Shown here: positions 58,026 through 63,597 of the stretch, piece after piece
Layout: the number at the start of each line of letters is the position of its first letter
Numbering within the stretch: position 1 is the first letter of the stretch
NCBI RefSeq assembly: GCF_020171365.1
Contig: NZ_JAIUZO010000002.1
Location: 62,001 to 126,000 of the forward strand
Direction: 5' to 3'
From: Qipengyuania gaetbuli
Lineage (GTDB): Bacteria; Pseudomonadota; Alphaproteobacteria; Sphingomonadales; Sphingomonadaceae
Length of the DNA: 64,000 nucleotides
Position numbers and translations under genes: made by a program
Notes under the pieces: model-generated
The model's database searches: none
What the model was told of the DNA's origin: nothing
What the model saw: only the letters and a program-made list of their open reading frames with translations

Positions 58026-59240
58026 ATGTCCGATATCAAGCGTGTCGTCCTCGCCTATTCCGGCGGCCTCGATACCTCCGTCATCGCCAAGTGGCTCGAA
58101 GTGGAACGCGGCCTCGAAGTCGTCACGTTCACTGCCGACCTCGGCCAGGGGGAGGAAATCGAACCGGCCCGGGCCAAGGCGCGCGCCATGGGCATTCCGG
58201 ACCAGCACATCTTCATCGAGGACCTGCGCGAGGAATTCGTGCGCGATTTCGTGTTCCCGATGATGCGCGCCAATGCCCGCTATGAAGGCGACTACCTGCT
58301 CGGCACCAGCATCGCGCGCCCGCTGATTTCCAAGCGCCTTGTCGAGATCGCGCACGAAACCGGCGCGGACGCCATCGCGCATGGCGCGACCGGCAAGGGC
58401 AACGACCAGGTCCGGTTCGAACTGTCGGCCTATGCGCTCGATCCGGACATCAAGGTCATCGCCCCGTGGCGCGAATGGGATCTGACGAGCCGCACCGCGC
58501 TGATCGCCTGGGCCGAAGCGCACCAGATCGCCGTTCCCAAGGATAAGCGCGGCGAAAGCCCGTTCTCGACCGATGCGAACCTGCTGCACACCTCGTCGGA
58601 AGGAAAGGTGCTGGAGGATCCGTGGGAAGAGACGCCAGATTACGTCTATTCGCGCACCGACCATCCTGAGAACGCCCCGGACACGCCCGAATACATCACG
58701 ATCGATTTCGAGAAGGGTGACGGCGTTGCCCTGAACGGCGAGGCGATGAGCCCGGCGACCCTGCTTGCCGCGCTGAACGGTCTCGGCCGCGCGCACGGCA
58801 TCGGGCGCCTCGATCTCGTCGAAAACCGCTTCGTCGGCATGAAGAGCCGCGGGATGTACGAAACCCCCGGCGGCGAAATCTACGCCCGCGCCCATCGCGG
58901 GATCGAGCAGATCACGCTCGACCGCGGGGCGGCACACCTCAAGGACGAACTCATGCCGCGCTATGCCGAACTGGTGTACAACGGCCTGTGGTTCAGCCCG
59001 GAACGCGAGATGCTGCAGGCTGCCGTCGACCTCAGCCAGGAGAAGGTGTCGGGCACCGTCCGCCTCAAGCTCTACAAGGGCAATGCGATGGTGGTGGGCC
59101 GCAAGTCGCCCAACAGCCTCTATTCCGAAGCGCACGTCACCTTCGAGGACGATGCGGGCGCCTACGACCAGAAGGACGCGGAAGGCTTCATCAAGCTCAA
59201 CGCCCTGCGCCTCCGCCTGCTGGCGAAGCGCGACCGGTAA
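58026..59240 (+). CDS. argG: Argininosuccinate synthase
   Basis: 404 residues from the ATG at 58026 (AAAGGTG upstream). The N-terminal P-loop-like [36 protein letters not shown], and [14 protein letters not shown] mark the family. It condenses citrulline and aspartate in arginine synthesis with ATP. A GCGCCGC/GCGGCGC hairpin lies just before the gene (57977-58000). No terminator was seen directly after the stop. Confidence 0.97.
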
Positions 59241-59320
59241 TTGCGTGAAAGCGGGTGCGGGAAGCGCAAAATTGCGCATTCCCTACGCTTGACCTTCAGA
59301 AATTGCGACGAACCGTTGAC

Positions 59321-59363
59321 TTATCCACCTCCGTCCACAGCGAATTCGGGGGAAAGTGGATAA
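59321..59363. promoter_or_regulatory. Inverted pair of DnaA-box-like motifs
   Basis: TTATCCAC (59321-59328) and GTGGATAA (59356-59363) are an exact 8-bp inverted repeat with 27 bp between. Each matches eight of nine positions of the DnaA box TTATCCACA. No AT-rich unwinding region or dnaA/hemE gene is nearby, so an origin is not proposed; it could be a DnaA-regulated site or a stem-loop. Confidence 0.3.
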
Positions 59364-59529
59364 CTCGGCTCTTGCAAGCTTGAAGAATCGGGCGATCAGG
59401 CGCAGCTTCAATTCATCGGAACGGCGAAGAAAGCTTCCGGTCCAGACGGTCCAACGACCTGAAAGACTTAGGAAATTCGGAACCGGAAAGACGTAGCGGG
59501 ATCTGTCCGCGCGACTTTCGAGACCCTCG

Positions 59530-59937
59530 TGCAGAAGGCTTCGGCCAGACGCAAGGCGGGTCGATGACGGAGACGCGTAACATCCCATTATGGGCCGGAC
59601 CAACCCGGTCGGATGCCGAGGAGGCGTCGCAGCAAGGTCTTCGGACCGGATGGTGATGCAACCGCTCGAGGCTCCGGCCATCAACGGAAGGTCGGGCTGC
59701 GGAGCCGCCCGTCGAAGGTCGGCTGGGGAAGGTAAGCGAATGGCTTCGGCCACGACGCGACCTGACCGGGCTGATTGGAGGGTGGAGCCGGATGCCGGTG
59801 CGAGCGCCGGTGACAGACCCGGAAGACCGTCTTCGGACGGACAGAAGGGAAAAGCATCGGATGCCAAGCTCTCGTCTTCGGACAAGACCACGCATCGGTG
59901 AGAGTGGGGTCGGCAGCAATGCCGGCCCCATTTGCTT
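59530..59937 (+). ncRNA. Candidate structured RNA with multiple UUCG hairpins and an intrinsic terminator
   Basis: Within the 930-bp gap after argG (59241-60173) there is no gene, but the plus strand carries a series of hairpins with C(UUCG)G loops: 59537-59546 (3 bp), 59636-59647 (GGTC/GACC), 59741-59752 (TGGC/GCCA), 59827-59840 (CCGTC/GACGG) and 59874-59883. Other stems are 59593-59610, 59612-59628, 59670-59706 (GGCTCCG/CGGAGCC) and 59795-59810. The series ends in a terminator. This loop orientation only makes sense for RNA transcribed rightwards. No tmRNA tag, RNase P core or SRP motif is present. The 5' end is unknown. The two open frames crossing it lack codon bias. Confidence 0.5.
59905..59937 (+). 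terminator. Intrinsic terminator of the candidate RNA
   Basis: An 11-bp stem (TGGGGTCGGCA, 59905-59915, with TGCCGGCCCCA, 59920-59930, one T-G pair) closed by a GCAA tetraloop and followed by TTTGCTTT. It faces rightwards and lies 245 bp upstream of the RlpA-like gene, so it ends a transcript coming from the structured region. Confidence 0.82.
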
Positions 59938-60173
59938 TGGGCTCCCTTCCCCGCATCTCGCCATCCTCCGTCCAGGCATGCAGACCCTCGAATCACGCGA
60001 TAGTGTGATTGCCCTGTGCCACCCACGAGATGCTGTAGGAAAGTGCGCCCGATCCGCGCCGCGAGGCCGCAATCGCGACGAACTGTGGCCGAATCGAGGC
60101 AGCCGCCCCTGGCCTTAACGACTCCGCCTGCGGGGTCATCTATAGCCTCCCGAACCGAACGGGAGGTCCATTC

Positions 60174-60686
60174 ATGGCCAAACGCGCGCTACGCAGCATG
60201 CTCTTCTTCGCAGCCCTCACGCTGCCCGGTACCGCCGGTCATTCCGAAGAGCGTGAGCTTACCCCAGTATCCGACACCCAGTTCGCGGCCACTTTCGCCG
60301 CCTACGCGCCCCTGCCCGAAGCGCCTGCGCCGGGTCCGGAGGCGGTCGACCTCGCCACGATCGAGCCGGTAGTCGACGCGGAACCTGCGGGCACCTCGCT
60401 CGGCTCGGGCGTCGCCTCCTATTACGGCAAGCGTTTCCACGGCCGCCGCACCGCCAGCGGGGAACGGTTCGACATGAACGGCTACACCGCCGCGCACCGC
60501 ACCCTGCCCTTCGGCAGCCGCGTTTCGGTGACCAACCCGCGCACCGGCAAGTCGGTGGTGGTCCGCATCAACGATCGCGGTCCCTTCCACGGCGGCCGCA
60601 CGATCGACCTGTCGCGCGCCGCGGCAGAGGAGATCGGCATCGTCAACCGCGGCCACGGCGAAGTGGAACTGGCGCTGCTCGACTGA
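60174..60686 (+). CDS. rlpA: RlpA-like septal ring lytic transglycosylase
   Basis: 170 residues with a signal peptide near [19 protein letters not shown]. The double-psi beta-barrel (about 85-165) has the RlpA motifs [32 protein letters not shown] and [18 protein letters not shown], with catalytic Asp/His candidates. RlpA cleaves naked glycan strands during division. It has no SPOR domain, unlike the Pseudomonas protein, so it is a short form. Confidence 0.88.
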
Positions 60687-62206: not shown

Positions 62207-62956
62207 TTAGGGTACAATACACTGAGGCGTAATTCCGATCGCGAGGACCGGACAGCCTCCATTTCGTCCGGCGTCCAAGCGATAAAGCAGTTTGCCCATC
62301 CACGTCGTCGAAGCTCCAAACTTCTTGTAGACTTCGTCAGCGCCTTGGGTGCCATCCTTTTTGAGCACTTTTCCTAGTCCGCGGAAATAGTTGGTGTCGA
62401 GTGATGAACCTCGCGTAATAATCACACCAACATCAATCGCTCCCGCCTCATAAAACGCTGAAAACGCGTATAAATCTCGGTCGTACGTCTGGTCCTTTGA
62501 GTTCCATTCGAGATCAATCGCGACGCGACCTTGGAGAAAATCGATCCGGTGTCCGTCTAGGAATCCCTCGCGCACGTAAGAGTCTATTATCTGATCCTTC
62601 TTTTTCGCGTGCAGCAGTTTCACGTGAAGATCGGCCGAAATCCGCGACTCCTGCCAACCCGAATTCTGGTCGAAGAGTGTGTCGACGTATTTCGCTATTG
62701 GGCCCTTGCTACCGCCCGGCAACCGGATCATCGTCTCTGTGATTTGAAAATTGTTTAGCGCTGATTTTAGGTCAGCGAACTGCTGTGGGAAGCTTGAAGC
62801 CAATATTGCGGCCGCATTTCTGTAGCTACGGACCTCGAATTTCTCACAGATGTTTTTGCCTAACACTGATTCCGCTAGGATCGCAGGGTCGGCACCCTTC
62901 CCGGTCGAAACGTCATCGGCAGCTTCAAAATCGCCACCATAAAGAGAAGAGCTCAT
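62207..62956 (-). CDS. BglII/BstYI-family type II restriction endonuclease
   Basis: 249 residues. The catalytic part RIDFLQGRVAIDLEWNSKDQ has Asp139 with D148-x-E150 at the spacing of the D-x8-E-x-Q site in BglII. Immediately after it comes YDRDLYAFSAFYEAGAIDVGVIITR (shown here as YDRDLYAF and IDVGVIITR), typical of this PF09195-type family. The expected product cuts a six-base GATC-containing site (BglII AGATCT, BstYI RGATCY), but specificity here is not known. Its ATG overlaps the methyltransferase stop by 4 bp. The DNA is lower in GC than the flanks, suggesting transfer. Confidence 0.85.
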   Translation of the reverse strand: MSSSLYGGDFEAADDVSTGKGADPAILAESVLGKNICEKFEVRSYRNAAAILASSFPQQFADLKSALNNFQITETMIRLPGGSKGPIAKYVDTLFDQNSGWQESRISADLHVKLLHAKKKDQIIDSYVREGFLDGHRIDFLQGRVAIDLEWNSKDQTYDRDLYAFSAFYEAGAIDVGVIITRGSSLDTNYFRGLGKVLKKDGTQGADEVYKKFGASTTWMGKLLYRLDAGRNGGCPVLAIGITPQCIVP

Positions 62957-63597
62957 TCAGCAGCTACCGCCATCGAGTTGAAGGAGTAGGTGCTCCAAGT
63001 TGGGGCATAAGATTCGTCAGCTTGATTGCCCCAAACCGTCCAACCGTCACGTACGCCCCGACTAAACATTTCAAGTCTTGGACCCCAACTACATTCCTCA
63101 ATGAGTTGGTACTGCTCATCAGGTTTCCGGCTATGCTCACGCTTGCGCGACTGAATCATATTTACTTGGCTGCGGCCAGGGGGAAGCGTCCGAGCATTTT
63201 TCCCTCGCACGCCAAAAAGCAGAATCTCTGTTACATTACGGAAGTAAAACCCAACGCCCCTTCCGTCGGAGCCTCCGTCTTTCCGAATCTTATGCCAGAT
63301 AATATTTGAAACGTACCGAAATCCCCAAGCTTCCATTACCTTAAGTCCATCCGGCAATAATGCATTAGGAACCCACATATAAAGATGTGCCGGTTCGGCC
63401 GAAATTTCTTCTACCGGAAGCTCGCAAATTTCATCGAGCGCCATAGTTCCATAGCGCATTAGTCGCTTGTGCTCCGGGGCGACCTTCCCTGTTCTATTCT
63501 GGAACTGCCAAGGTGGGTCAGCCAGAATTGTTCCAAATTTGACGCCGTTTGCAACGCGTAGCAAGGCTGAAGCGGGTGTTTCGTCTTCTGAGAACAT
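62953..63597 (-). CDS. MT-A70 family DNA N6-adenine methyltransferase
   Basis: 214 residues from the ATG at 63597. The catalytic motif is DPPW (residues 27-30, ILADPPWQF), followed by the MT-A70 segments LYMWVPNALLPDGLKVMEAW, YVSNIIWHKIRKD and the C-terminal SRGVRDGWTVWGNQ. As in MunI-type enzymes, it should protect the host genome by methylating adenine in the recognition site of the coupled endonuclease. No Shine-Dalgarno is visible before the ATG. Adenine methylation paired with a BglII-like nuclease is unusual, since M.BglII is a cytosine-N4 enzyme. Confidence 0.87.
   Translation of the reverse strand: MFSEDETPASALLRVANGVKFGTILADPPWQFQNRTGKVAPEHKRLMRYGTMALDEICELPVEEISAEPAHLYMWVPNALLPDGLKVMEAWGFRYVSNIIWHKIRKDGGSDGRGVGFYFRNVTEILLFGVRGKNARTLPPGRSQVNMIQSRKREHSRKPDEQYQLIEECSWGPRLEMFSRGVRDGWTVWGNQADESYAPTWSTYSFNSMAVAAE

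Follow-up and report, generated by a model that had tools for sequence, protein, structure and literature searches.

What lies in the long gap between argG and an rlpA-like gene of Qipengyuania gaetbuli, and is it a gene in its own right? The initial annotation of this DNA had described a non-coding gap of about 930 bp carrying a structured RNA that may be a new long ncRNA class. In the window (the whole stretch of 64,000 nucleotides that was analysed), the gap measures 933 bp (59241-60173). Its neighbours are as follows.

58026-59240, + strand: argG (argininosuccinate synthase), upstream neighbour, same orientation (Pfam PF00764, PF20979)
60174-60686, + strand: rlpA-like gene, downstream neighbour (Pfam PF03330)

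Directly 3' of argG is an inverted repeat, GGGAAGCGCAA..TTGCGCATTCCC (59259-59283), which is possibly argG's own terminator and precedes the putative RNA promoter discussed below. Elsewhere in the window (62207-63597, − strand), a BglII-type restriction endonuclease (PF09195) sits beside an MT-A70 family methyltransferase (PF05063), an unusual-looking restriction-modification pair.

UUCG hairpins on the plus strand

Five C(UUCG)G-capped hairpins had been reported on the + strand, and all five were found, with CTTCGG at positions 59539, 59639, 59744, 59831 and 59876. The − strand of 59530-59937 contains none. In 2000 first-order Markov shuffles, the mean number of CTTCGG motifs was 0.12 and the maximum 2, compared to the 5 observed in 59530-59937. 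The average over the whole window is 0.27 per 408 nt, and five copies occur in 1 of 2544 stretches of 408 nt (whole window, steps of 50, both strands). Folding of the + strand of 59500-59945 gave a z of –3.0, with 1 of 100 shuffles as good, whereas the − strand folds no better than shuffles (z –0.9, 19 of 100 as good).

Extent and spread of the conserved unit

BLAST of 59241-59960 against 99 relatives identified the unit in 51 of 60 same-genus genomes, this one counted. Matches in these genomes mostly begin near 59303 and end at ∼59935-59960; the nearest copy is 99% identical, and in one of the 51 (G021) the unit is split in two pieces. The conserved unit thus delimited, 59303-59940, comprises a putative promoter region and a structured RNA. 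The feature start given earlier, 59530, has to be moved upstream, as the conserved unit begins at ∼59303 and the 5' end of the predicted RNA lies ∼115 nt before the claimed one.

Nine same-genus genomes are without the full unit. In the seven examined at argG (G041 and G054 were left out), an rlpA match follows 163-277 bp after the argG stop. Promoter and RNA disappear together in these seven, which delimits the unit and shows that it is dispensable, and its clean absence argues against a required central role in the cell cycle.

Of 298 genomes in a family sample, 136 give a match at E ≤ 0.01, and the weaker of these matches are short pieces. A covariance model of the 3' domain scores at least 60 bits in 78 of 296 genomes of an order sample, representing 20 genera, all of the same family. 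Matches at E ≤ 1e-3 (154/296 in the order sample, 12/289 in a class sample) overstate the spread; of those in the class sample, 3 score 60 bits or more and belong to that family as well, and weak terminator-type scores there overlap chance scores, up to 42.3 bits. One genome (G218) has a second match to the model, of 39 bits and away from argG (L124 2976-3111), which is possibly a paralogue or chance. Among the 80 of 106 core-pattern contigs listed are members of Qipengyuania, Erythrobacter, Altererythrobacter, Parerythrobacter, Porphyrobacter, Tsuneonella, Pelagerythrobacter and Pontixanthobacter, and further contigs assigned to Sphingomonadales, Sphingomonadaceae, Alphaproteobacteria or Proteobacteria.

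Strong matches occur as a rule once per genome, in a syntenic place. In 55 of 56 units, argG precedes the RNA and has the same orientation; the gene was found at 98 of 106 contig loci; at 7 of the 8 others, the stretch stops ≤60 nt from the RNA. The eighth, L227, and L042, the single argG miss among the 56 units, are one locus. Here a response regulator, a sensor kinase and an HprK-like gene (by eye chvI-chvG-hprK; L227 1000-4500) lie upstream instead, and the boxes, promoter, RNA and rlpA are kept despite the missing argG. On the other side, rlpA was found at 93 of 106 contig loci, the misses including three with >2 kb of room; it is inverted in L133, and none was found in L121. Searches of 72,556 plasmid records and 50,697 phage records gave no match to the unit, and a profile search of viral contigs with the core pattern saw the RNA in 0 of 7.

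Compensatory changes across relatives

Two sets of units were compared. One consists of 56 of 58 units (L031 and L032, duplicates of other loci, were dropped), 53 of which make up alignment A1. For the other, 201 units passed length and coverage filters, 141 of these were distinct, and 138 remained after a similarity cut. RNAalifold predicted a multi-branched fold with many compensated pairs from the 56 sequences (mean identity 63%). With the 138 rows, the consensus energy was –194, compared to a mean of –45 (sd 6) for 15 column-shuffled alignments.

To lessen circularity, we divided the 138 sequences by similarity into parts of 87 and 51 and scored the fold learned in one part in the other. 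The fraction of canonical cells was 0.760 and 0.774, versus 0.346-0.404 with slid partners and at most 0.472 with re-dealt ones. Double changes were seen in 85 of 140 and 79 of 131 pairs, compared to at most 73 and 64 after re-dealing, and 74 pairs were recovered from both parts. For the 3' domain plus terminator stem, 97.1% of cells are paired, 17 of 44 pairs show a double change, and 0 of 500 shuffles reach the observed value in all five measures; the covariation score of the 3' domain is 0.254, versus 0.131 in shuffles (0/500). Compensatory base changes are thus abundant in the stems of the 138-sequence fold and exceed the controls. On this comparative evidence, the element appears to be a structured RNA, as had been proposed. 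The UUCG hairpins, taken earlier as its hallmark, are upheld in their stems, which covary, but not in their loops, which are only partly kept: from 5' to 3', exact CTTCGG is present in 60, 39, 64, 48 and 14 of the 138 sequences.

G-U cells outnumber A-C cells (2293 versus 846; 2153 versus 812 in the other structure), which places the RNA structure on the + strand. A protein-coding gene was rejected, the reading frame being lost across relatives: 11% of 2861 indels (counted against L001) are multiples of three. The mean longest stop-free run, 174 codons, is slightly longer than in Markov shuffles (157). Two ATGs are conserved, at 59792 (128/138) and 59919 (120/138), and both lie inside the paired core or the terminator hairpin.

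Anatomy of the predicted RNA

The predicted RNA can be divided into a 5' multi-branched domain, a 3' domain and a terminator-like hairpin.

59415-59936, + strand: predicted structured ncRNA, ∼520 nt (covarying fold; start at 59414-59417 deduced from promoter geometry, end at the terminator)
59415-59793, + strand: 5' multi-branched domain, closed by helix P1, 59415-59417/59791-59793 (P1 recovered from both split parts)
59422-59485, + strand: branch 1, 59422-59430/59477-59485, with hairpin 59448-59451/59456-59459 (double changes in 11 of 11 pairs counted)
59493-59591, + strand: branch 2, 59493-59500/59584-59591, 59510-59518/59569-59577 and 59527-59532/59551-59556, with UUCG hairpin 59537-59539/59544-59546 (double changes in 8/8, 9/9, 5/5 and 3/3 pairs)
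59593-59698, + strand: branch 3, 59593-59597/59694-59698 and 59607-59617/59670-59679 (consensus fold of 138 sequences), with UUCG hairpin 59636-59647 (56-sequence fold only)
59700-59790, + strand: branch 4, 59700-59709/59781-59790, with UUCG hairpin 59741-59744/59749-59752 (double changes in 5/8 and 4/4 pairs)
59788-59812, + strand: most conserved sequence core, CCGGATGCCGGTGCGAGCGCCGGTG (alignment A1)
59794-59899, + strand: 3' domain, 59794-59802/59891-59899 around 59804-59812/59855-59864 and hairpin 59868-59875/59882-59889 (covariation)
59902-59941, + strand: terminator-like hairpin 59902-59915/59920-59933 with a GNRA loop, then a U-rich tail (nearly invariant stem)

Helix P1 is conserved, without double changes. 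Each of the four branches of the 5' domain bears a small hairpin, and the strongest single covariation, 59743/59750, falls in the UUCG hairpin of branch 4. The 3' domain carries the most conserved sequence, CCGGATGCCGGYGCGAGC, and its conserved stretches are mostly paired. Of the GNRA-capped terminator described earlier, the hairpin and its cap (a GCAA loop) stand; its stem is longer than stated, with 14 pairs rather than 11 bp. The terminator loop reads AGCAAT or AGCGAT in 120 of the 138 sequences, while 7 have CTTCGG instead. The hairpin sequence occurs as a single copy in 404 kb of sampled genome, which argues that it is not a stock terminator of this genome. A strict consensus scan of 59200-60300 listed neither a terminator nor a sigma-70 promoter.

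A putative promoter region with DnaA-box-like sites and GANTC

We read the first ∼110 bp of the unit as a putative promoter. This region, with its DnaA-like boxes and GANTC site, is missing from the initial annotation. It contains the following elements.

59303-59320, + strand: conserved TTGCGACGAAC..GTTGA block upstream of the first box (column conservation, 138 sequences)
59321-59328, + strand: DnaA-box-like site A, TTWTCCAC (43-bp geometry)
59333-59339, + strand: DnaA-box-like middle site, GTCCACA here (TCCAC 99-100% per column)
59356-59363, − strand: DnaA-box-like site C, inverted, GTGGAWAA on the + strand (conservation and geometry)
59379-59384, + strand: –35 element CTTGAA, with conserved TTG (T 100, T 95, G 99%)
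59385-59389, + strand: GANTC (GAATC), CcrM-type methylation site in the spacer (GANTC in 113 of 138 spacers)
59403-59408, + strand: –10 element CAGCTT, xAnnnT (A59404 and T59408 100%)

The DnaA box consensus is TTWTNCACA; boxes A and C are without its final A. The middle site has the same form as the Caulobacter DnaA motifs GTCCACA, CTCCACA and ATCCACA (PMC4287350). Boxes A, middle and C are found in exact 43-bp geometry in 124 of 138 sequences, and the three sites are candidate DnaA boxes. We considered an RNA hairpin for the inverted repeat 59321-59363 and rejected it, as the W positions of A and C (59323/59361) do not covary (AA 59, versus AT 65, TT 5, GT 5 and TA 4, among the 138). The flanking pair 59320/59364 is C-C in 46 and G-G in 27 of the 138. 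The arms being non-covarying, we read them as DNA sites. The block at 59303-59320 fits no promoter spacing and is perhaps the site of a further factor.

TTG..A...T occurs together in 131 of 138 sequences, and the distance from TTG to xAnnnT is fixed at 29 nt, end to end, in 137; the –10 element here starts with C. The spacing from box C to the –35 element is constant in 130 of 138. TTGAC at 59316 was dropped as an alternative –35 element, for it has no conserved xAnnnT at 16-18 nt, whereas CTTG at 59379 has one. Caulobacter RpoD motifs mostly start 34-37 nt before the transcription start (PMC4287350). Counted from TTG, this would place the start at 59414-59417, where the paired region begins.

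Within the spacer, GANTC occupies mainly three registers (43, 40 and 23 sequences) and is absent in 25 of 138. The use of three registers speaks for selection acting on the site itself and against a single inherited position. GANTC is scarce in the genome sample, at 0.93 per kb observed compared to 3.3 expected from composition. The genome encodes GcrA (PF07750 at C2:631752) and a RAMA-domain protein (PF18755 at C2:557059), which we take to be of CcrM type, the domain being typical of CcrM. With GANTC between its –35 and –10 elements, in a genome that encodes GcrA and a putative CcrM-type protein, the predicted promoter has the features of the GcrA/CcrM type.

The arrangement resembles that of several Caulobacter cell-cycle promoters described in PMC4287350. 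There, start sites that carry GANTC between –35 and –10 become active at 40-60 min of the cycle. In podJ P2, GANTC is found at –24 and a DnaA motif at –82, compared to –30 and –82 here when counted from 59415; in ctrA P1, GANTC is at –28/–29 (∼–30 here); and mipZ P2 has DnaA motifs at –52 and –83, where the boxes here span ∼–94 to –52. These three promoters drive protein genes, whereas the predicted product here is an RNA and the three boxes have a fixed geometry.

Probable diverged relatives in other genera

Divergent copies follow argG in genera g122, g113, g96, g88, g114 and g35, those in g113 being recognised from the box pair together with weak profile scores. The box pattern TTATCCACN{18,36}GTGGAWAA occurs in 102 of 298 family genomes, compared to 6 for a reversed control pattern. 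A tighter box pair lies 424-760 nt before the same kind of terminator in g28 and in one of the two g50 genomes that were fetched; a single TTWTCCAC is found at this distance in three g103, three g104 and one g69 loci, and in one further g104 locus the box is 1037 nt from the terminator. When 32 loci were scanned for terminator and boxes, 10 had no terminator match, and the other 22 had a box pair (9), a single box (8) or none (5). By eye, GACTC is present in the promoter region of 9 of 11 distant loci and absent in L348 and L356. The first 150 nt of one g104 unit (L128) contain no GANTC.

Units were obtained from 6 of 6 loci given for g28, 6 of 8 for g104, 4 of 5 for g103 and 2 of 3 for g122 (g122 was not folded). 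Within-genus folds gave canonical cell fractions of 0.94 (g28), 0.88 (g104) and 0.90 (g103), versus 0.34, 0.31 and 0.37 when slid by 2, which is weaker evidence than the split test in that fold and test use the same few rows. Profile searches with the full unit gave mostly nothing in the distant genera and no body-sequence hit between genera; in some, the signals of kinship are the box pattern and the terminator only. Neither a profile hit nor a box pair was seen behind argG in 23 of 30 further genomes. For six g104 loci (L122, L123, L125-L128), the 6-kb stretch contains no argG, and the distant version in G174 is on a different contig from argG. Judged by promoter, terminator and fold style, common descent of the distant RNAs is likely.

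Eight loci from other genera were without an Rfam match. In L339 (g103), a locus with no Rfam match, the letters GAAGGAAAGTCCGAG close to the beginning of the RNA body resemble, to our eye, an RNase P motif; the likeness is probably chance.

Comparison with known RNAs

Rfam 15 at gathering score reports no family in the window, as the proposal of a new class would have it. At E ≤ 5, the 1.2-kb region matches just two microRNA families (E 1 and 1.3), which is chance level, and ARAGORN finds no tRNA or tmRNA in the window. RNase P RNA, alpha-tmRNA and 6S RNA are likewise structured housekeeping RNAs of bacteria, and each was rejected as the identity of this RNA on finding the genome's own copy elsewhere (C2:1870797, C2:2068917 and C2:2249875, respectively); the initial annotation had noted that the sequence lacks the RNase P P4 core, the tmRNA tag and the SRP domain IV sequence. 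Given the covariation, the negative Rfam result and these separate copies, the suggestion that the RNA may be a new long class stands.

The OLE, GOLLD and ROOL families are in Rfam. Like the RNA described here, they are large ornate bacterial RNAs (PMC12286853); unlike them, ours has no Rfam match and no match in the phage and plasmid records. A closer parallel in setting is CcnA of Caulobacter crescentus, an alphaproteobacterial cell-cycle ncRNA in a region with DnaA boxes (PMC8959179). CcnA is encoded at the replication origin, presumably under activation by CtrA (PMC8959179), whereas the locus here shows no skew switch (the skew is weak) and has no TTAA in 59303-59415; moreover, the RNA here is ∼520 nt long and predicted to be highly structured.

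Among the matches listed from the open-licence literature, we did not find this RNA described, and an entry in the supplements of structured-RNA surveys (e.g. PMC8632094) is possible. Long structured ncRNAs in general are known; this RNA family, and a long structured RNA under a putative DnaA/GANTC promoter, we could not find described in the open-licence literature.

Discussion

We propose, with a probability of about 0.7, that the locus is an independent gene for a ∼520-nt structured ncRNA (59415-59936, + strand) that is cell-cycle-linked, trans-acting and dispensable. Comparison of relatives shows the predicted fold and its strand, the boundaries of the unit, the lack of a kept frame and the fixed geometry of the promoter elements. 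The mechanism is more conjectural. Transcription would start at ∼59415 from a housekeeping (sigma-70 type) promoter, with DnaA binding the three upstream boxes and GcrA acting with the CcrM-methylated GANTC in the spacer. Synthesis of the RNA would follow passage of the replication fork, in S phase, a timing suggested by the Caulobacter GANTC start sites (40-60 min) and podJ P2, and transcription would end at the GNRA-capped hairpin, at 59936. The product may then act in trans as a folded molecule, in keeping with structure that is kept while sequence drifts, the genome in which argG is missing, and the mostly paired state of the conserved 3'-domain stretches. If so, the conserved 3' domain would most likely hold or titrate a protein partner, and the variable UUCG-capped arms could be a stabilising periphery. 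The RNA is not essential, as some relatives have lost the unit cleanly, and the argG-less locus with its boxes, promoter and RNA (L042/L227) argues for the independence of the unit.

The main rival concerns the mode of action. A long trans antisense RNA could base-pair with cell-cycle mRNAs, as CcnA and EcpR1 are reported to do, rather than bind a protein. The promoter logic does resemble that of cell-cycle genes, CcnA has been proposed to act on ctrA and gcrA mRNAs (PMC8959179), and EcpR1 of Sinorhizobium modulates the cell cycle (PMC4414408). Much of the sequence here is held in helices, however, and the body diverges between genera, which makes this mode unlikely, if the most probable of the alternatives. 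We give lower odds to a cis element, in which the structure would be a 3' UTR of argG or a leader of rlpA acting on those mRNAs. The near-constant presence of argG upstream, in the same orientation, is what one would expect of such an element. But the unit has its own promoter elements, its terminator lies 240 nt before rlpA, rlpA is inverted in one locus and not found in another, and promoter and RNA persist where argG is missing; distant versions, too, occur without argG in the 6-kb stretch or with argG on another contig.

Similarly improbable is that the locus is a conserved DnaA-binding site, either an origin or one of the kind named datA or DARS, with the RNA incidental. Three DnaA-like boxes in a fixed 43-bp geometry, with W positions that vary independently as expected of DNA sites, would suit this idea. 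It does not account for RNA covariation over the ∼520 bp downstream or for the constant spacing from boxes to promoter. A replication origin in particular was rejected, as the locus has negative GC skew on either side and no switch in the two genomes sampled (G000, 40 stretches; G031, 20 stretches), although the skew is weak and noisy. The main sign changes are elsewhere: in G000 near 1.55-1.6 and 2.3-2.6 Mb, with the skew falling to near zero from 160 kb on, and in G031 near 1.4-1.55 and 2.65-2.85 Mb. Least probable by far is a selfish or mobile RNA element, or a remnant of one. HEARO and GOLLD are long ornate RNAs that ride on mobile DNA, and the unit has been lost in some genomes. Against this stand the single strong match per genome, as a rule, in a syntenic place, and the negative searches of plasmid, phage and viral sequences.

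An independent gene for a trans-acting RNA thus remains the preferred reading. To our knowledge, there are few long structured bacterial RNAs that have no known function, and those that are known have proved unusual. The RNA described here is chromosomal and conserved over many genera, as a rule with one copy in each genome, and to judge by the predicted promoter it would be produced in step with the replication cycle. The proposed RNA can be tested for in culturable strains. We also entertain a broader idea, which is tentative and on balance doubtful: long structured RNAs under a promoter governed by DnaA and CcrM/GcrA might form a superfamily that is present in much of the family and is an unseen RNA arm of the alphaproteobacterial cell cycle, in which promoter and terminator are kept, the body evolves fast, and the RNA feeds the state of replication to a protein partner. 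Accounts of cell-cycle control in Alphaproteobacteria deal mostly with proteins and DNA methylation. A conserved long RNA subject to those controls would, if true, add a new kind of component.
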